From Noviherbaspirillum sp. Root189 (GTDB taxonomy: Bacteria > Pseudomonadota > Gammaproteobacteria > Burkholderiales > Burkholderiaceae_D), in contig NZ_LMHZ01000045.1 in the NCBI RefSeq assembly GCF_001428545.1, positions 62,001-126,000 on the forward strand: 64,000 nucleotides of DNA, written 5' to 3'. The notes beneath the pieces were generated by a model, which saw nothing but the letters and a program-made list of their open reading frames with translations, ran no database searches and was not told the DNA's origin. The translations under genes and the position numbers were made by a program. Shown here piece by piece: positions 1,778 through 12,595 of this stretch; the first letter of the stretch is position 1; the number at the start of each line of letters is the position of its first letter.

Positions 1778-4360
1778 TCATTTCGGCACCATCAAATCTC
1801 GAAAACGCTGGCACTGTTTGTCCAGCGAGTCGTCCGGATGATCCTTGTCCTCGATTAAAAACACTGTCCTCATGGACAGCTTGCCGGCTGCCGACACCTT
1901 GACCCGCTTACGTGCCTTCAACTCACGCCCGCCCATCAACTCTGAAAACTTGGTCAACGACAACTTGGTTTCACGGGTACGCTCGCACCATCTCAGGAAA
2001 TACTCGTGTAGGTCTTCAGAGATGCAACTGCAGTAAGGAATATCCAGCTCCTCGCCCTTCCAGCGCTCATGGAACACATGCCAGCCCGGCAAACCGAAAC
2101 GGATAATTCCATCCTTGGAATCAGTGCGCGGCGGCAGCGTATGCTCATTGAAGTCACCAATGGGATAGCGCAGCAGGAACTCGTAGAATGCGGCCGATGC
2201 ACCTTCCTTGAGCAGACGTTTGAACCTGTCGTAGAAAGCTTTTTCCAGCTTGTTCTTCGCCCCGACCACCAGGAAGCGCCTGTCCTCCAGATCGATTGGG
2301 ATTGGCTGCGGCTCGTTGGACAGAAACACCGCATTGAGGTGGTTTGCTTCTACCCGCTCCGGCAGATTCTTCGGGTTGATCCGCTGAGTGCGGCCGGTGA
2401 CCATGTGCTTCAATGTGCCGAGGTGGTTGTACCGGTCATTACGCGATAAGACCTCCTCGAAAAGGACAAAAAGGCGACGCGACTTCCAGTCCGTAAAGCT
2501 CGATTCCAACTGGTGCTGGCCTGCGGTCGTACCATAGTCTCCATAAATGGGGCCCATGACACCTTCAAAGAAAAGACTTTTACCGGTTCCCTGCTTTTCA
2601 CCGAACATTAGGATCGCTGTCTGCATCTTGGCTCCCGGATTCTGGAGCGGGAATGCCAGCCAGCGCAGCAGCCACTGGAACACTTCATCGGCATTGCTTT
2701 CTGACGAACATAACGAGGCGAGCAGCTCCAGCACCGGCTCAACCAGTGCCTCATCATTCACCGGTATCAAGGGAAATCCCGCAAACATATTGATATGCGT
2801 TTCTGGTGAAGCCTGCAAAGTCGGGTCAAACACCAGGTTCTTCGCGTCGCGCATTTCCCGATGCGGACTTTCCAGCCACCGCACCGCCAGATCCGGATAC
2901 GCCGCTCTCATTGCCGACAGACCGACAACATCGCGCAGGACGCGGTCCCATACCGTTTCGGTTCCATACAGCAGAACATACCGGTCCAGCATTTCCTTAA
3001 GCGGGTCCGCTCCCCGCCCCCCTCCGTCAAGTGCGCGCCCACCCTTGAGCAACGGTAAATCGCGCTGATCTTTCGTCTTGCGCTCGGGATGCTCCAGCCA
3101 TTGCTTTGCCAACTTGGCACCGAAACAAGCCTGAAAGGCGGCTTTCTTGATCACTTGCTGATTCAATGCATCCCAAACATCGGTTTTTCCGTAAATCAGT
3201 GAAAAATGCTGCAGCAACGACTCGATGGTGCCTGGCTTGACCTCCATCACTGGCAAGTCCGTATCATCTGCTGAAGGAGTGCGAGGAACGGCATCGTTCG
3301 AATGCGCCAGCGTCAAGGCGGGAGCGGGAGGAGCCGCGTCGAGGGCAGTAAGGGCAGCGATTGCAGTTGCCATTTGCTCAGCAACCACCGCGATAGATTC
3401 CGCAACATGCAAGTCATTGAAGTCGGTCAGCATGGGCAGCGATTCATCCGATTTGCTTTGCCGCCTTGCTGCTGTAAAGACCGGCAGCAGCACCGATGCA
3501 TTTCCAACAGCAGTGGCAGCGGCCTGAGCCTTCTGCACACCCTTACCACCGGTCAGGTAATCGTCGTCAGCACAGAACAGGATCGGACTGGAGGGAAACT
3601 TAGAACGCAAAATCTGCGCAACAGCGAGCAGGCCGGACGTATCAAACGCCACATAGAACGGATGTTGATAGCTAACCGCCATTCGAACCGACAGACCGGT
3701 CGCGTACCCTTCGCCGATCAATAGCAGGTCGCCATCATTCGGCAAATTGCCAAGCCGGCATGCCGCACCGTGCTTGTCCATGCCACCACTGTATTTCTTC
3801 GTGCCGTCCGCTGCAATTGCCTGCTTGCCGACCATCGCTGCTGGCTCAACGTCGTACCGCATCATCGGCACGATGATGGCGCCATCAGGAAGGAATCGGC
3901 AACTCTCCGGATTGACCTGTTTACGTTCAAGGTACGGCGACACGCCTTCGTCGGCTGCCATACGCCATTGGCTTTGCGCCCGCTTTGCTGCCGCTGCTGC
4001 ACGGTCCAGCCGGTCCTTCTCGGCTTTCGCTGCGCGCTCCTCGCGAGCCTTCTTATCAGCTGCAAGCCTTTCGGGTGAGACTACGATGTCAGCCTGGTCA
4101 AGCACGAAGCCTTCGTCGATAGCCTCTTTCAGCAGACTGCCAATGCCTATCTTGCCGCCGTTCTTGAACGACTTCCACGACGCAGCTGCGGCGCCTGGAC
4201 TGAAGTTGTCCGAACCAGCGCTCCAGTTGATCCAGGTCTCACGAGCGGCATCGCCAAATTCTGCTTTGAGTGCCATACCCATCCGTACCCATGTATCGCG
4301 GTCATCCGGAGAGATAAAGGACAGTGCCCTGCTGGCAGTATCAAGGGTGAGTGGAACCAT
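1778..4360 (-). CDS. Phage primase-helicase (PriCT-2, Toprim and SF3-like ATPase domains)
   Basis: An 860-residue replication protein. The N-terminal ~90 residues (ISPDDRDTWVRMGMALKAEF...SWKSF) look like a PriCT-2 domain. A Toprim-type region follows, with LLLIGEGYATG near residue 215 and ILFCADDDYLTGG near 260. The C-terminal third is a superfamily-3-like helicase: Walker A GEKQGTGKS near residue 600, acidic Walker B RLFVLFEEV, and a sensor-like NAVFLSNEPQP. It should unwind and prime the phage origin. Start 4360 (MVPLTLDT) is preferred, nine bases after the stop of the upstream YmfL-like gene; ATG 4381 overlaps that gene. Iterons lie just downstream. Confidence 0.9.
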   Translation of the reverse strand: MVPLTLDTASRALSFISPDDRDTWVRMGMALKAEFGDAARETWINWSAGSDNFSPGAAAASWKSFKNGGKIGIGSLLKEAIDEGFVLDQADIVVSPERLAADKKAREERAAKAEKDRLDRAAAAAKRAQSQWRMAADEGVSPYLERKQVNPESCRFLPDGAIIVPMMRYDVEPAAMVGKQAIAADGTKKYSGGMDKHGAACRLGNLPNDGDLLLIGEGYATGLSVRMAVSYQHPFYVAFDTSGLLAVAQILRSKFPSSPILFCADDDYLTGGKGVQKAQAAATAVGNASVLLPVFTAARRQSKSDESLPMLTDFNDLHVAESIAVVAEQMATAIAALTALDAAPPAPALTLAHSNDAVPRTPSADDTDLPVMEVKPGTIESLLQHFSLIYGKTDVWDALNQQVIKKAAFQACFGAKLAKQWLEHPERKTKDQRDLPLLKGGRALDGGGRGADPLKEMLDRYVLLYGTETVWDRVLRDVVGLSAMRAAYPDLAVRWLESPHREMRDAKNLVFDPTLQASPETHINMFAGFPLIPVNDEALVEPVLELLASLCSSESNADEVFQWLLRWLAFPLQNPGAKMQTAILMFGEKQGTGKSLFFEGVMGPIYGDYGTTAGQHQLESSFTDWKSRRLFVLFEEVLSRNDRYNHLGTLKHMVTGRTQRINPKNLPERVEANHLNAVFLSNEPQPIPIDLEDRRFLVVGAKNKLEKAFYDRFKRLLKEGASAAFYEFLLRYPIGDFNEHTLPPRTDSKDGIIRFGLPGWHVFHERWKGEELDIPYCSCISEDLHEYFLRWCERTRETKLSLTKFSELMGGRELKARKRVKVSAAGKLSMRTVFLIEDKDHPDDSLDKQCQRFRDLMVPK

Positions 4361-4368
4361 TCCCGCGC

Positions 4369-4857
4369 TCAGCCCTTGCAATAGATCTTGAAGCTCAGCG
4401 CAAGCAGCTCCGCTACCTTTCGGTGGACCTGTCCACCGTGCAAAGTGAGATCGGCACGTTCGTTCGCATCGATTTCGTTATCGCCGATGGATTTGTTAAA
4501 TGTGGCGTGCAGCAGTCCAAGCTCGGCATGCAGTTCGTTGAATTTCGCCATCAGCAAGTCATTGTCGATATGTTCGACGCATGGCAGCTTGACAAAGGTG
4601 CCGCCAGCGTCCGCTGCAACTGCTTCAGCGAACAGAGTGGTATCTGAAAAGTCCTGCATCTGGCGCGCCATGTGCACCGACATGCTCTGACCTTTTTTCT
4701 CGTACACATGGTTCTCCAGTGCGGAAACGGTCATTCCGAGAGCACCCGCCATTGCGCCCCAACCGCCCTGCATTGAGGTGCACATCTTTTTGTAGGCATC
4801 TTTCAGTTCCACGGGCCTCTCCTGGACTTCGGTGGTTTTTAAATTTATTTTTGACAA
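4369..4857 (-). CDS. YmfL-family phage regulatory protein
   Basis: A 162-residue protein starting MSKINLKTTEV. The region DAYKKMCTSMQGGWGAMAGALG followed by MTVSALENHVYEKKGQ fits a helix-turn-helix as in the YmfL family of E. coli e14 and related prophages. The C-terminal half is helical and acidic. The family sits next to Cro in many lambdoid control regions and is thought to play a CII-like or replication-control role; that is family knowledge, not shown here. It is downstream of the Cro-like gene and its terminator and immediately upstream of the primase-helicase, so read-through or an extra promoter near 4950 would be needed for expression. Confidence 0.75.
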   Translation of the reverse strand: MSKINLKTTEVQERPVELKDAYKKMCTSMQGGWGAMAGALGMTVSALENHVYEKKGQSMSVHMARQMQDFSDTTLFAEAVAADAGGTFVKLPCVEHIDNDLLMAKFNELHAELGLLHATFNKSIGDNEIDANERADLTLHGGQVHRKVAELLALSFKIYCKG

Positions 4858-4951
4858 CTAAACTGGCTTCAAACACAACATTAAGGGAGCCAGCTTTGCA
4901 AACTTTCTATCGCTACTGCGTCAAGTCAAATCGTTTCATTGCCGTACCTCG

Positions 4952-4969
4952 AATTGAGTTTTCTCAATT
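4952..4969. promoter_or_regulatory. Perfect inverted repeat between the Cro-like and YmfL-like genes
   Basis: AATTGAG-TTTT-CTCAATT, 7-bp arms with a 4-base loop, lies in the 170-bp gap between the two leftward genes. It could be an operator for the YmfL-like protein, a weak hairpin, or part of an antitermination site. It lacks the T-run of a terminator. Function unassigned. Confidence 0.5.
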
Positions 4970-4983
4970 TCCTAAGTACAGAC

Positions 4984-5019
4984 GAAAAAAGAGGCGGCTA
5001 AGCATTACTCGGCGCCGCC
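4984..5019 (-). terminator. Terminator after the Cro-like gene
   Basis: On the minus strand GGCGGC (5019-5014) pairs with GCCGCC (4998-4993) and is followed by TCTTTTTTCG, just nine bases past the stop of the Cro-like gene. The loop is long (15 nt). It would end or attenuate the leftward early transcript, as tR1 does after lambda cro. Confidence 0.65.
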
Positions 5020-5027
5020 CTTCAGAC

Positions 5028-5246
5028 TTATTCAGACGTTGTTTTGGACTCAACGAGAGTTGAAATCCCCCGTTCCATCGCTAATCGCTTCAAGCCCTCA
5101 ACGACTGCATATGAAGGCCGCGATTTACCAAATTTGCCAGCCGCCATTGCGCTAATAGACGGCTGGGTGCAGCCGATCTCATTCGCAATTTCGGTTTGAG
5201 TAAGCCCTTTTTCGAGGAGCTTAGCTAAGATGAGTGCAATGTCCAT
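5028..5246 (-). CDS. Cro-like helix-turn-helix repressor
   Basis: A 72-residue protein if started at ATG 5246 (MDIALILAKLL). Residues about 12-33 (GLTQTEIANEIGCTQPSISA) form a clear helix-turn-helix. It is divergent from the larger repressor gene at 5320 and is separated from it by three operators. A sigma70-type promoter (TTGACT, 17 bp, TATATT on the minus strand) predicts a transcript starting only a base or so before this ATG, so the mRNA may be leaderless. Upstream in-frame ATGs at 5264 and 5282 would fall before that predicted transcript start. Role: Cro-type switch protein competing for the operators. Confidence 0.8.
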   Translation of the reverse strand: MDIALILAKLLEKGLTQTEIANEIGCTQPSISAMAAGKFGKSRPSYAVVEGLKRLAMERGISTLVESKTTSE

Positions 5247-5253
5247 AGGCAAC

Positions 5254-5282
5254 AATATAAGCATACTTATTCCTGAAGTCAA
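5254..5282 (-). promoter_or_regulatory. Leftward early promoter of the Cro-like gene
   Basis: Reading the minus strand, TTGACT (5282-5277), a 17-bp spacer and TATATT (5259-5254). The spacer contains operator 5257-5270 and the -35 box overlaps the edge of operator 5282-5295, so repressor binding should occlude polymerase. The arrangement CTTAT-TGAC matches the other early promoter at 6515. Confidence 0.75.
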
Positions 5283-5319
5283 TAAGGAATCTTATAGCGC
5301 TATGTATAAGAATTCTGAT
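5257..5319. promoter_or_regulatory. Three-site repressor/Cro operator region (right-operator analogue)
   Basis: Three copies of ATAAG-N4-CTTAT: 5257-5270 (spacer CATA), 5282-5295 (GAAT) and 5306-5319 (AATT, right arm CTGAT with one mismatch). Centres are 25 and 24 bp apart, about two and a third helical turns. The first two cover the leftward promoter; the third covers a TATAAG -10 hexamer (5305-5310) and the predicted start of repressor transcription. The layout mirrors lambda OR1-OR3. Confidence 0.85.
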
Positions 5320-6045
5320 ATGTCTATTGGGAAACGAATTCGCGAAGCGAGAACTGAGGCGGGCTTGTCACAAAAGCAACTTGCGACTAAAGCCGGCGTC
5401 TCTCAGTCCGCCATCTCACAGCTTGAGACTGGCGAGTCACAAGCTGCATCAAGCACTGCATCTATGGCAGCAGCGCTCGGCGTTAATGCGCTCTGGTTAG
5501 AAAGCGGGAAAGGCCCCAAGCGGGCTGATACATACACAGGGGAAGAGCGGCGAGCTGAGAACCGTAGTGATAAGTTAACTGAAGATTCACCGTATGCGCA
5601 TTTTAACGCCGGCCCAAATTTGGAACTGCGCCCAGGGAGATATGTGGCGATTGTAGGTATTGGCCAAGGAGGCCCCGACGGGTATATCAGCATTGACGAT
5701 TATCCGTCCGGACAAGGCGATGGAAGAATCTATACTTATAGCCCAGATCCCGATGCATATGCTATTCGAGTGCGAGGCGACAGCATGCGTCCAAGGATAA
5801 AGAGCGGGGAGTACATTGTTGCTGAGCCTGGTGTCGAAGCACAGCCAGGCGATGACGTCGTTGTAAAGCTAAGAAACGACAAGGCAATGGTCAAGGAGCT
5901 ACTTTGGGTACGCGATGGAGAAATTTCCTTTGGCTCTATTAACGACTCTGTGCCCCCAATAACACTACAGTTACAAGACATTATCTGTATTCACAGAGTG
6001 GCGGCAATTGTGCCAAGAGGATCGGCCTTGATACAGCCATATTAA
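5320..6045 (+). CDS. CI/LexA-type prophage repressor (XRE HTH plus S24 peptidase domain)
   Basis: A 241-residue protein from ATG 5320 (MSIGKRIREAR). Residues about 15-40 (GLSQKQLATKAGVSQSAISQLE) are an XRE helix-turn-helix; the C-terminal half is a LexA/UmuD-like S24 domain with nucleophile Ser in RVRGDSM and general-base Lys in KAMVKEL. This is the maintenance repressor, probably inactivated by RecA-stimulated self-cleavage; the cleavage dipeptide is not obvious, with VGIGQGG the best linker candidate. No Shine-Dalgarno precedes 5320, and a TATAAG -10 hexamer ten bases upstream suggests a leaderless mRNA, as for lambda cI from PRM. Alternative start 5302 would extend it by six residues. Confidence 0.9.
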   Translation: MSIGKRIREARTEAGLSQKQLATKAGVSQSAISQLETGESQAASSTASMAAALGVNALWLESGKGPKRADTYTGEERRAENRSDKLTEDSPYAHFNAGPNLELRPGRYVAIVGIGQGGPDGYISIDDYPSGQGDGRIYTYSPDPDAYAIRVRGDSMRPRIKSGEYIVAEPGVEAQPGDDVVVKLRNDKAMVKELLWVRDGEISFGSINDSVPPITLQLQDIICIHRVAAIVPRGSALIQPY

Positions 6046-6114
6046 TAATAGGAATTTGTTCAATGAGCGCGTTTACGGTCTAATTGCTTGTTTGCAACCA
6101 TTCTAAGCGATCAT

Positions 6115-6417
6115 ATGGCTCTTATTTCGTGCCCCGAGTGCAACAAAGAGGTATCCAGCGCAGCAGTAGCCTGCCCAAGTTGCGCTTACCCTCTTACGTC
6201 AGCTGCCAACGTACATAGCGCGGACGAGCAGACGATTATTACAACCCAGCTAACGGCAAAGCGATACAAAGCGCTGCAGCTTCTTGGCGGCTTAACACTT
6301 GCGACAGGAATTGCTGTTGTTGTAGCAGGCGGCCAAGGGGTGGGAACGGTCATGGTTGTTGCAGGGATGATTTGTTATGTCGGTGCCCGGCTCGGCGCTT
6401 GGTGGAATCACGGTTAA
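6115..6417 (+). CDS. Zinc-ribbon membrane protein
   Basis: A 100-residue protein. The N-terminus carries a two-knuckle zinc ribbon (CPECNKEV...CPSCAYPL) and the C-terminal half has two short hydrophobic spans (LLGGLTLATGIAVVVAG and GTVMVVAGMICYVGARLG). ATG 6115 is chosen because the zinc ribbon normally begins within a few residues of the start; an ATG at 6088 would add nine. It follows the repressor in the same direction and is closed by a terminator at 6440, so it is probably transcribed in the lysogen. Lysogenic-conversion or superinfection-exclusion roles are plausible but unproven. Confidence 0.75.
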   Translation: MALISCPECNKEVSSAAVACPSCAYPLTSAANVHSADEQTIITTQLTAKRYKALQLLGGLTLATGIAVVVAGGQGVGTVMVVAGMICYVGARLGAWWNHG

Positions 6418-6439
6418 ACACCTCCCTTTTCAAACGAGA

Positions 6440-6465
6440 AACCTGCCAATGGCAGGTTTTCTTAT
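6440..6465 (+). terminator. Rho-independent terminator of the repressor transcript
   Basis: AACCTGCC (6440-6447), loop AAT, GGCAGGTT (6451-6458), then TTCTTATTTT. It separates the repressor/zinc-ribbon unit from the early rightward operon. Confidence 0.85.
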
Positions 6466-6501
6466 TTTCGGCATCAGATAAATTAGCGCTTATCTTTAAA
6501 T

Positions 6502-6544
6502 ATAAGCAAACTTATTGACGTGACCGTATAAGCTTGCTTATACT
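6502..6544 (+). promoter_or_regulatory. Rightward early promoter with two repressor operators
   Basis: Operators ATAAG-CAAA-CTTAT (6502-6515) and ATAAG-CTTG-CTTAT (6528-6541, extended to 7-bp arms GTATAAG/CTTATAC) bracket TTGACG (6515-6520). The -10 is TATACT (6539-6544, 18-bp spacing) or TTATAC (6538-6543, 17 bp). The first operator ends inside the -35 exactly as at the Cro promoter. It drives the operon starting at 6592 and is the left-operator analogue of this phage. Confidence 0.85.
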
Positions 6545-6591
6545 TCCTTCCATCGCGCAACAGTTCGTTGCGGCAACACGATGGAGAGCAG

Positions 6592-6726
6592 ATGAGCTAC
6601 CTGGTCACAATCAACAAAGACGGAAAACCATTTTCCTACACTGCCATCGGTAGCCGCGATGCGCTCATGGATGACGCCTACGACAAGTACGGTGTTTGCG
6701 GTGTGACTGTCATGGTGCAGCAATGA
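6592..6726 (+). CDS. 44-residue early phage protein
   Basis: First gene of the early operon. Starts MSYLVTINKDGKPFS and ends VTVMVQQ. GGAGAG lies five bases before the ATG, and the stop overlaps the next start (ATGA at 6723-6726). It has one Cys and no membrane span. Similar tiny proteins head early operons of Burkholderiales prophages, but I cannot name a function. Confidence 0.65.
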   Translation: MSYLVTINKDGKPFSYTAIGSRDALMDDAYDKYGVCGVTVMVQQ

Positions 6727-7016
6727 GCACCGTCCGCATCCGCAGCAGCGCTCCCGATCCGTTTAATGGCGCCCGTGGCCATGACTACATCAAGGCCCGC
6801 GGACTGTCGCAGCGCATCCCATTCAGAGGTGCCGCAACGAGCGGCGAATGCCAGTGCCCGACCTGCATCCGCGAGCGTCTGCTGCCTGCTGTCCAGGCGA
6901 TCTGCGCTGCCGCATCCAAAGACCGCAGGAAAACAAGCGTGCTGCAAGAGGTGAACTGGAATTTCCTGTCCGACGAGTCCGTGCAGGGCTTGCTCGACGT
7001 CGAACTCGAGGCCTGA
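6723..7016 (+). CDS. Early phage hypothetical protein with a CxCxxC motif
   Basis: A 97-residue protein beginning MSTVRIRSSAPDPFNGARGHDYIKARG is chosen at ATG 6723, which overlaps the previous stop. A GECQCPTCIRERLLPA segment near residue 43 could bind a metal with help of other residues, but only three close cysteines are seen. The C-terminus is acidic (LSDESVQGLLDVELEA). It belongs to the coupled early operon; no family recognised. Confidence 0.65.
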   Translation: MSTVRIRSSAPDPFNGARGHDYIKARGLSQRIPFRGAATSGECQCPTCIRERLLPAVQAICAAASKDRRKTSVLQEVNWNFLSDESVQGLLDVELEA

Positions 7017-7017
7017 C

Positions 7018-7209
7018 ATGACGGCGCGCATCCAACCTGACCGCGCCGCACTGGAGATTGCTCACCGCACCCTATTCGTCAGCACACCGCTCGACGACAT
7101 GCTCAAGCAGACCTCCTTCCGTCTCATTCTCGAAAACATCGCTCGTCGGCATATGCAGCGCCGCGCGCGGACTGATGTGAAAAAGCTGCAGGCCAACGAC
7201 CACGATTAA
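7018..7209 (+). CDS. Small early phage protein
   Basis: A 63-residue basic protein, MTARIQPDRAALEIAHRTLF at its start, with an ARRHMQRRARTDVKK run at the end. It begins one base after the stop of the preceding gene, consistent with translational coupling. Probably helical; no motif recognised. Confidence 0.55.
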   Translation: MTARIQPDRAALEIAHRTLFVSTPLDDMLKQTSFRLILENIARRHMQRRARTDVKKLQANDHD

Positions 7210-7231
7210 CTTAAACAAGAAGGGAGAACCC

Positions 7232-7579
7232 GTGAGCAAAGCATTTGCCGTGTTCCTTCAGGATCTGCGCGACGGTCGCGCTCATTCTGAACTATCCGGC
7301 CAACTCGAAGAATTGATCTCGAAGGTGAAGGAAACCGGTAAGGCCGGCGGCATCACGCTGAAGATCAAGATTAAACCGGCCAGTCGCGGCGGCGATGTTG
7401 ACAAGGTCACGGTCTCGGACCTGATCTCCGTGGATCTTCCGAAGCCAGAGCGAGGCGAGGACTTCTTCTGGCTGACCGACGACAACGATCTGTCGCGCAA
7501 CCATCCCCGTCAACAAAGCCTGGAGCTGCGCGAAGCAGCATCGTCCAAGCCATCCAACCTGAAGGAAGCAAGCAAGTGA
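7232..7579 (+). CDS. Early phage hypothetical protein
   Basis: A 115-residue protein using GTG 7232, with AGGGAG eight bases upstream. The first ~65 residues (FAVFLQDLRDGRAHSELSGQ...GGITLKIKIKPASRG) are well ordered and conserved in style; the C-terminal third is polar and probably flexible (NHPRQQSLELREAASS). Its stop overlaps the start of the DUF2303 gene (GTGA). Gene pairs of this kind with DUF2303 are common in prophages of this order, but the function is not known to me. Confidence 0.7.
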   Translation: MSKAFAVFLQDLRDGRAHSELSGQLEELISKVKETGKAGGITLKIKIKPASRGGDVDKVTVSDLISVDLPKPERGEDFFWLTDDNDLSRNHPRQQSLELREAASSKPSNLKEASK

Positions 7580-10746: not shown

Positions 10747-10961
10747 GCTTAGTCACACAAGCATTCATTGTCGAAAAATATGGCATCCGCCTGAAGCTGG
10801 AACAAGTCGCAGAGATCCTCGGCGTCACCAAAGGTGCACTGTATAACCAGATCAGTGCCGGCACGTGCCCGGTGAAGACCTATGTCGACGGTGGTAAGCG
10901 CTGGGCCGACTACCGTGACGTCGCCAAGCACATTGACGAATGCAGGGAGCTTGCAGCATGA
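10743..10961 (+). CDS. Small helix-turn-helix protein
   Basis: A 72-residue protein. Residues about 17-38 (LEQVAEILGVTKGALYNQIS) form a helix-turn-helix followed by a wing-like VKTYVDGGKRWADYRDV, the usual form of AlpA/excisionase-type or MerR-like small phage DNA-binding proteins. It could be a recombination directionality factor for one of the integrases or a local regulator. It overlaps the methyltransferase start by ATGA (10958), so the two are translated together. Confidence 0.7.
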   Translation: MSLVTQAFIVEKYGIRLKLEQVAEILGVTKGALYNQISAGTCPVKTYVDGGKRWADYRDVAKHIDECRELAA

Positions 10962-12595
10962 AGCGAGATGTCTTCACGATGCAGTTACAGCTCGGACACG
11001 AGCTTGCGATCGACAACTTTGCTGGCGGCGGTGGGGCTTCTACAGGGATCGCCATGGGGCTTGGCAGAGAGGTGGACGTTGCCATCAACCACGACGGCGA
11101 AGCCCTCGCCATGCATGCGGCAAACCATCCGACCACCGCGCACTACACGGAAGACGTGTTCAACGTGCACCCGGGATTCGTTACCCGCCAGCTGCCGATC
11201 GGTCTTGCCTGGTTCAGTCCGGACTGCAAGCACTTCAGCAAGGCAAAAGGCTGCACGCCCGTCGACAAGAAGATTCGCGGCTTGGCATGGGTGACACTGA
11301 AATGGGCAACTTTCCAGATGCCCCGCGTCATCATGCTGGAAAATGTCGAAGAGTTTCAGGGCTGGGGCCCGGTCGGCACCGACAACAAGCCGGTTAAGGC
11401 CGAAAAGGGACGCACGTTCAAGGCATTCATTGCTGCATTGACGACCGGCATCCCCAAGGACCATCCGGACCTTGAGGAAATTTACACAGTCCTCGGTCAT
11501 GACTTCCCGATCGAGCGCCTGCACCAGGGGCTTGGCTACCAGGTGGAATGGAAGGTGCTGCGTGCCTGCGACTACGGCACGCCGACGATCCGCAAGCGCC
11601 TGTTCCTGGTCGCCCGCCGCGATGGCCGCCCGATCGTCTGGCCGGCGCCGACGCACGGCGACCCGAAGAGCGACGCCGTCAGGAAGGGCAAGCTGCAGCC
11701 GTGGCGCACCGCGGCGGAATGCATCGACTGGTCCCTGCCCTGCCCGTCGATCTTCAAGCGCAAGAAGCCGCTGAAGGACGCCACGCTGCGGCGGATCGCC
11801 AAGGGCGTCATGAAGTTTGTCGTCAACAGCGCGGATCCGTTCATCGTCGGCGCCGGCGGCCCGGCCTACAGCGGCAAGCCCGCCGCTGTCGACAAGCCGT
11901 TCGGAACCCTGACGACCGAGAACCACCGCGCCGTTGTGGTGCCGATGATCGCGCCGGTCATCACCGAGCATGCGAATGCCTCATCGCCGCGCAGCTGGTC
12001 GGCGGACGAGCCGCTGCGCACGATCTGCGCGCAGGTCAAGGGAGGCCACCATGCGCTGGTGTCGGCATTCCTTGCGAAGCACTACACCGGCGTGGTCGGT
12101 ACCGGCATCGATGTCCCGGCCGGCACCGTCACCAGTGTCGACCACCATTCACTGGTGACCAGCAACCTGGTGAAGCTTCGCAACAACCAGTTCGGCCAGG
12201 ATGCACGCGAGCCGATGCCGACGCTGACTGCCGGCGGCGGCCATGTCGGCGAGGTCCGCGCCTTCCTCGTCAAGTATTACAGCGAGGGCGGCCAGTGGCA
12301 GGATTTGCGCGATCCGATGCACACGGTGCCCACAAAGGACCGTCTCGGCCTGGTGACCATCCACGGCGAGGACTATGCAATCGTCGACATCGGCATGCGC
12401 ATGTTGTCGCCTCGCGAGCTGGCACGTGCGCAAGGCTTTCCGGACACATACATCCTGAACCCCGTCGTCAACGGCAAGCCGCTCACCAAGACGGCACAGG
12501 TCCGGATGATCGGCAACAGCGTTTGCCCGCCAATGGCAGCAGCATTGGTACAGGCAAACATGACACATGAACACCAACTTGCGAGGGCAGCATGA
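10958..12595 (+). CDS. Phage DNA (cytosine-5) methyltransferase
   Basis: A 545-residue C5 methyltransferase. Motif I is AIDNFAGGGGASTGIA near residues 15-30; motif IV is WFSPDCKHFSKAKG, with the catalytic Cys inside SPDC instead of the common PPC; motif VI is MLENVEEF; motif VIII is IRKRLFLVARR; motif X is MIGNSVCPPMAAALV near the C-terminus. The long stretch between VIII and X contains the target-recognition region. It transfers methyl groups from SAM to cytosine in DNA, most likely protecting phage DNA from host restriction. No cognate nuclease is adjacent, so it is an orphan enzyme. Start 10958 overlaps the HTH gene. Confidence 0.92.
   Translation: MKRDVFTMQLQLGHELAIDNFAGGGGASTGIAMGLGREVDVAINHDGEALAMHAANHPTTAHYTEDVFNVHPGFVTRQLPIGLAWFSPDCKHFSKAKGCTPVDKKIRGLAWVTLKWATFQMPRVIMLENVEEFQGWGPVGTDNKPVKAEKGRTFKAFIAALTTGIPKDHPDLEEIYTVLGHDFPIERLHQGLGYQVEWKVLRACDYGTPTIRKRLFLVARRDGRPIVWPAPTHGDPKSDAVRKGKLQPWRTAAECIDWSLPCPSIFKRKKPLKDATLRRIAKGVMKFVVNSADPFIVGAGGPAYSGKPAAVDKPFGTLTTENHRAVVVPMIAPVITEHANASSPRSWSADEPLRTICAQVKGGHHALVSAFLAKHYTGVVGTGIDVPAGTVTSVDHHSLVTSNLVKLRNNQFGQDAREPMPTLTAGGGHVGEVRAFLVKYYSEGGQWQDLRDPMHTVPTKDRLGLVTIHGEDYAIVDIGMRMLSPRELARAQGFPDTYILNPVVNGKPLTKTAQVRMIGNSVCPPMAAALVQANMTHEHQLARAA

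Follow-up and report, generated by a model that had tools for sequence, protein, structure and literature searches.

Candidate repressor operators of sequence ATAAG-N4-CTTAT in a lambda-like arrangement in a Noviherbaspirillum prophage, and their recurrence in other prophages

The window analysed is a stretch of 64,000 nucleotides from Noviherbaspirillum sp. Root189 (contig NZ_LMHZ01000045.1, positions 62,001 to 126,000), and the part of it treated here contains a repressor gene and a small helix-turn-helix gene in divergent orientation, two predicted early promoters and five short palindromes (Table 1). The repressor has an N-terminal HTH_3 domain and a C-terminal Peptidase_S24 domain, as in repressors of the 434 and P22 c2 kind, and the region of its recognition helix reads VSQSAISQLETGE (with Q29, S30 and Q34). 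With a divergent repressor and small HTH gene and shared candidate operators between them, this part of the window fits a lambda-type CI/Cro region. Rightward of the second promoter (pL) there are small open reading frames, a PHROG 204 protein and a DUF2303 protein. The reading frame between the repressor and pL (6115-6417) has zinc-ribbon matches below the Pfam cut-off and a hydrophobic stretch, and is possibly expressed in the lysogen. A nucleotide search of window positions 1-25000 against phage records gave five short matches; within a 551-residue reading frame at 10940-12595, the DNA at 11534-11745 is 84% like a phage DNA cytosine methyltransferase gene.

Table 1. Candidate regulatory sites, predicted promoters and genes of the region (positions in the window).
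Feature	Position	Strand	Remarks
CII-like regulator, downstream of cro	4369..4821 (range as scanned plus stop; start codon approximate)	-	Phage_CP76 9.5e-9; PHROG 101 1.6e-28
Replication primase, downstream of cro	1778..4381	-	PriCT_2, DUF5906, Toprim_3; PHROG 2249
Cro-like HTH protein, 72 aa	5028..5246	-	helix region TQPSISAMAAG; HTH_3 1e-5; PHROG 6831 2e-15, PHROG 6223 1.3e-9
pR-like early promoter of cro, TTGACT-17-TATATT	5254..5282	-	10/12 consensus bases; predicted
Operator S1 ATAAGCATACTTAT	5257..5270	.	exact motif; inside spacer and -10 of cro promoter
Operator S2 ATAAGGAATCTTAT	5282..5295	.	exact motif; touches -35 of cro promoter
Operator S3 ATAAGAATTCTGAT	5306..5319	.	one mismatch; recovered by motif-free search; abuts repressor ATG (5320)
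Repressor, 241 aa	5320..6045	+	Pfam HTH_3 1.1e-12, Peptidase_S24 9.9e-16; PHROG 4 transcriptional repressor 4e-42
Terminator-like hairpin between repressor side and pL	6438..6460	+	one found; shuffles average 2.5, weak alone
Operator OL1 ATAAGCAAACTTAT	6502..6515	.	exact motif; touches -35 of pL
pL-like second early promoter, TTGACG-18-TATACT	6515..6544	+	10/12 consensus bases; same cassette in relatives; predicted
Operator OL2 ATAAGCTTGCTTAT	6528..6541	.	exact motif; inside spacer and -10 of pL
First small ORF after pL, 44 aa	6592..6726	+	from ORF list; no Pfam or PHROG family match

Phage repressors with HTH_3 and S24 domains undergo RecA-stimulated self-cleavage at an Ala-Gly or Cys-Gly pair that usually lies about 35-40 residues before the serine. 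In the window repressor S155 and K192 are unchanged across 14 aligned repressors; no Ala-Gly or Cys-Gly pair was found about 35-40 residues before S155, and Ala97-Gly98 lies 57 residues before it. Four relatives of the C-terminal domain read VGEVQGG at this usual distance before the serine.

The original prediction was that ATAAG-N4-CTTAT occurs four times exactly and once with a mismatch, 24-26 bp apart, in two clusters separated by about 1.2 kb, and a motif search confirmed these sites and positions: the start-to-start distances were 25 and 24 bp in the three-site cluster and 26 bp in the pair, and the starts of the clusters differ by 1245 bp. The two early promoters were the two best of four sigma-70-like promoter matches in positions 4800-7300 (shuffled sequences gave 2.0 on average), and the same candidate operators lie over both. 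Both predicted promoters have the proposed common design of operator, TTGAC, operator and -10 element, in which the -35 element overlaps the CTTAT arm of the outer site, the last base of the arm being the first T of TTGAC. A third operator at pL was sought in the window and none was found at fewer than three mismatches, the next best matches being at 6473 and 6480 with three mismatches each. An inverted repeat GATAA-N8-TTATC (6477-6494), noticed by eye, is located just before OL1, about 22 bp from the OL1 centre; it was rejected as a degenerate third OL site, its gap being two bases too long.

The frequency of the motif was determined in the genome of 6,147,767 bases, where it occurs exactly six times with four of the six copies in the window. 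Many equally good copies scattered over the genome would have spoken against the operator reading; the two other exact copies in 6.15 Mb are each single. A genome-wide regulon was rejected, as one of these single copies lies within a long open frame and the other at the boundary of two frames. Given two background copies per genome, the probability of four exact copies within 1285 bp is about 1e-15 under a uniform model, which ignores the AT-richness of promoters. At one mismatch or less the genome contained 57 matches, fewer than the 77 obtained for the backward-read control, so that there is no genome-wide excess at this level. With up to two mismatches 14 matches were counted in the window versus 10.2 expected, a number reached by 16 of 100 shuffles, and given that this count is near chance, weight was placed only on sites with zero or one mismatch. 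The region was also searched without any motif, for three palindromic 14-mers at phage-like spacing, and positions 5257, 5282 and 5306 scored 29 out of 30; the maximum was 23 for 300 shuffled sequences and likewise for 140 pieces taken from elsewhere in the window.

As in lambda OR/OL, cro and the repressor gene diverge from a region that holds three sites, and more sites occur at a second early promoter. The operator sequence is different from that of lambda and there are two OL sites in the window, whereas lambda has three. The repressors of 434 and phage 21/P22 are likewise HTH_3 and S24 proteins, and the motif-free search gave 14-bp core palindromes at 22-25 bp spacing for these phages, with the phage 21 sites falling inside the annotated operators. 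In contrast to the window, the core is ACAAG and the helix residues Q, Q and Q in 434, and TTAAG and N, V and Q in phage 21. In the Pseudomonas phage D3 (AF165214) three 14-bp putative sites are annotated between cro and cI, 24 bp apart, and the same three sites were returned by the motif-free search, but the core is ATGGG and the helix is DQTSISNLE.

A close named likeness was found in phi297 of Pseudomonas aeruginosa (NC_016762), which has the same layout of three plus two sites, here five exact copies of ATAAG-N4-CTTAT. Three, with spacings of 23 and 24 bp, are located in the divergent cro/cI region; the other two, spaced 25 bp, are found at annotated promoters at a distance of 2.8 kb. The helix of its repressor reads VSQPVISQLEKGE. 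As in the window, there are two OL sites at zero or one mismatch; three are present in the low-GC locus L046. All three phi297 sites of the divergent region lie upstream of the cI start set by homology; the start annotated in the record (3959 of L246) is further upstream, and the third site falls inside the annotated gene. Unlike the window, phi297 has TTGCAA between S2 and S3 and a Cro protein in PHROG 35. Among the openly licensed PMC papers searched, none was found that gives ATAAG-N4-CTTAT as a phage operator.

Viral contigs were scanned for the paired motif, and exact site pairs were found in at least 120 viral stretches. As raw counts made without shuffle comparison and with repeated phages included, 139 of the 156 exact pairs were spaced 23-26 bp and 80 exactly 25 bp, although all spacings of 20-44 bp were counted. 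In 69 of the 120 stretches listed, an exact site lies no more than 200 bp from the start of a gene that matches the repressor HMM. For the 51 loci where no such start was found within 200 bp, some contigs are cut, some are low-GC with imperfect sites at the repressor and some are probably chance occurrences.

Viral relatives were also selected by the repressor itself, using the helix pattern Q[PS][VAL]ISQ[LM]E derived from an alignment of the window repressor with seven motif-found repressors, and the best 80 of 146 relatives were kept. The original prediction had called for a scan of related prophages for the same motif, and sites were indeed found beside repressors with a like recognition helix: at least two sites lie just upstream of the repressor in 79 of these 80 loci, in 68 of 69 after repeated regions were removed and in 67 of 68 when the phage of the window was also left out. 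Each of 19 control motifs with permuted arms gave 0/80. There is redundancy in this set, in that a 60-base word is shared with motif-found loci by 76 of the 80; each of the four without such a word (one being the window's own phage) has two sites or more. The single miss, L323 (near 4001), lacks the upstream cluster and has kept the pL pair, which may reflect a deletion or an assembly fault. The window repressor carries Q29, I32, S33 and Q34 and has at least two upstream sites, and so belongs to what we here call the ATAAG class, a grouping made in this analysis.

The paired motif was absent from 398 other genomes of the order and from 14 others of the genus, indicating that close kin of the window's host seldom carry this class. 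A repressor search of 99 other related genomes gave one further repressor at E ≤ 1e-15 (G032, 35% identity), and a repressor scan of bacterial genome contigs gave two relatives. Nine GenBank phage records were examined, eight of them among 27 whose encoded N-terminal domain is near and the ninth, H46, from a separate search; of the nine, phi297 alone had the upstream sites.

The window differs from its relatives in several respects. All three upstream sites are present at zero or one mismatch in 63 of the 68 distinct relatives, and 51 of these 63 have a T-to-G change at position 2 of the middle site. The window has a perfect middle site, and its mismatch is instead in the repressor-proximal site. 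TTGCAA is present between S2 and S3 in 67 of the 68 distinct relatives and absent in the window. This hexamer is self-complementary (e.g. L246 3945-3987), and the cro and repressor promoters of the relatives may through it share one -35 element on opposite strands. In the window S3 abuts the repressor ATG and pR is built like pL, unlike in nearly all relatives. The succession of site arm, site, TTGAC and site arm was found, counting exact letters only, in two viral contigs, those of the window's own phage and of L136, and the helix residues of L136 are Q, S and Q as in the window.

How the operator sequence relates to the recognition helix was examined with the motif-free search in 38 distinct repressor regions, taken from the best 80 of 235 relatives found by a pattern outside the recognition helix. 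These regions scored 26-30, compared to a maximum of 22 in 60 shuffles. The operator was ATAAG in 19 of 19 repressors with glutamine at the position of Gln34 of the window, and ATGGG or ATAGG in 19 of 19 with aspartate, asparagine or glutamate at this position; many of the 38 regions are closely related, and they should not be counted as 38 independent events. Eight of the 38 share no 60-base word with motif-found loci, and these split four and four and all agree with the residue rule. The helices of L357, L397 and L398, which the helix pattern had missed or misread, were read by eye as Q, P and Q.

In a gapless alignment of the HTH regions, Q29, S30 and Q34 of the window repressor correspond to Q28, Q29 and Q33 of the 434 repressor (1per), which are the residues that contact bases in 434. 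In the cases seen, glutamine at the first helix position accompanies A1. The relation is less clear for the second position, where proline, serine or threonine occurs together with T2 and glutamine (434) with C2, while alanine occurs with A2 in phiAH14a but with C2 in PhiR5_1. For the third position, lysine occurs with A4 in PhiR5_1 and alanine with G4 in A785.1. A rule of one helix for one operator was rejected, given that a low-GC group (L039, L046, L099 and L213) has ATAAG-like sites at the same offsets and another helix, SAPNVTGWE; the site therefore does not identify one helix. In the fetched stretches of L016/L019, L020, L021 and L022 no site with zero or one mismatch was found, and their repressors have a C-terminal domain like that of the window with another N-terminal domain or helix. 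As far as can be judged from these sequences, the C-terminal domain of the repressor does not set the operator sequence. The relation between residue and base extends an idea already in print (Hall, LeFevre and Cordes 2005, as referred to in PMC4488713), and in PMC3317979 the 933W repressor is modelled on that of 434.

The rarity of the motif, its overlap with the predicted promoters, the helix-selected relatives, the joint variation of helix and site and the motif-free search all support the operator reading and an OR/OL-like layout, and we consider it highly probable that the five sites are operators of the prophage's own repressor and, probably, of the Cro-like protein. The claim that the operator sequence could be stated precisely from the DNA alone survived the tests made. 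The analysis shows the sequences and positions of the sites, their overlap with predicted promoters and their variation together with the recognition helix in relatives; from there we infer binding, an order of affinities, cooperativity, autoregulation and any loop between pL and pR. The recognition helix would carry each repressor dimer's contact with a 14-bp site, the bases being read most likely by Gln29 and Gln34, and some 2.3 to 2.5 helical turns would lie between adjacent dimers. At pR, repressor on S2 would cover the edge of the -35 element and on S1 the spacer and -10 element, thereby blocking the promoter, and a similar occupation of OL1 and OL2 would block pL. With both promoters blocked in the lysogen, the lytic genes would stay off. 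S3 is predicted to be the weakest site because of its mismatch, and since the repressor transcript probably starts there, high levels of repressor or Cro would be expected to shut off repressor synthesis. In phi297, as counted on the sequence, about 42 bp separate the centre of the middle site from a candidate repressor-promoter start downstream of it, and an activator site at about this distance is found in lambda activation. Given that the window has no clear equivalent of this activating site, mainly negative autoregulation is predicted.

A lambda-type loop, in which repressor dimers bound at OR and at OL, 1.2 kb apart, form tetramers and so strengthen repression and autoregulation, would be an addition to repressor binding at the operators and not a replacement for it. 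In its favour, the same sites form two clusters whose starts are separated by 1245 bp, and the repressor has an S24 C-terminal domain, a domain that oligomerises in lambda CI. In 40 of the 68 distinct relatives the pL pair was seen within a flank of about 4 kb, at distances of 1093 to 4011 bp to the start of the repressor, and among the motif-pair loci listed the extremes were about 0.9 kb in L051 and 6.1 kb in L145; this range neither supports nor excludes looping, and we regard a loop as a possibility with the balance tipped slightly against it.

Alternatively, these operators might serve chiefly the Cro-like protein, or some other HTH regulator, and the S24 repressor would act at other places. 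The Cro helix (TQPSIS) has glutamine and serine in common with the repressor helix, and a Cro helix of the form [ST]Q-[AP]-[AT]-VS was present in 79 of the 79 relatives examined. According to PMC5730154, the Bacillus subtilis MarR protein PamR recognises TAATAAGnnnnCTTATTA, the same palindrome, which means that the palindrome alone proves no protein family. However, the sites are kept although the best Cro match is PHROG 35 in a typical relative and in phi297 (the two scanned) versus PHROG 6831 in the window, where the match to PHROG 35 is weak (0.005), and in the 38 motif-free regions the operator sequence tracks the repressor helix, which makes this explanation very unlikely. Searching phage records with the window Cro gave 12 matches, all in Acinetobacter (E 1e-4 to 6e-4); four of these records were examined and other operators were found there. 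With phmmer the window Cro matched one protein among 215 motif-found loci. Chance occurrence of AT-rich palindromes in promoter regions, which would suit the near-chance count at two mismatches in the window and the lack of a genome-wide excess at one, was rejected as negligibly probable given the rarity of exact copies in the genome, the 0/80 of the permuted motifs, the conservation of the sites in relatives and the motif-free score of 29 against a maximum of 23.

Binding of these sites by the prophage's own repressor is thus the reading that we retain. The five-site arrangement is real, the operator reading is well supported, and the probable switch is ordinary in kind, a lambda-like on/off switch whose site sequence recurs in many prophages. 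The likely operator of an uncharacterised repressor has been fixed from sequence alone, and the operator of the window is tied to a large operator class with a named and isolated member, phi297; cross-immunity among otherwise unrelated prophages thereby becomes directly testable. Specialists might wish to pursue two points, the operator class shared by these phages and the way in which site and helix vary together. We further suggest, tentatively and with about as much doubt as conviction, if not slightly more, that the operator and not the proteins is the conserved unit, such that the 14-bp site and the pL cassette are kept while Cro, the C-terminal domain and the recognition helix are exchanged; the window phage, having the shared operators together with a Cro and a pR of its own kind, would be a case in point. 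If this is true, otherwise unrelated phages would share immunity and the operator would be predictable from two or three residues of the helix.
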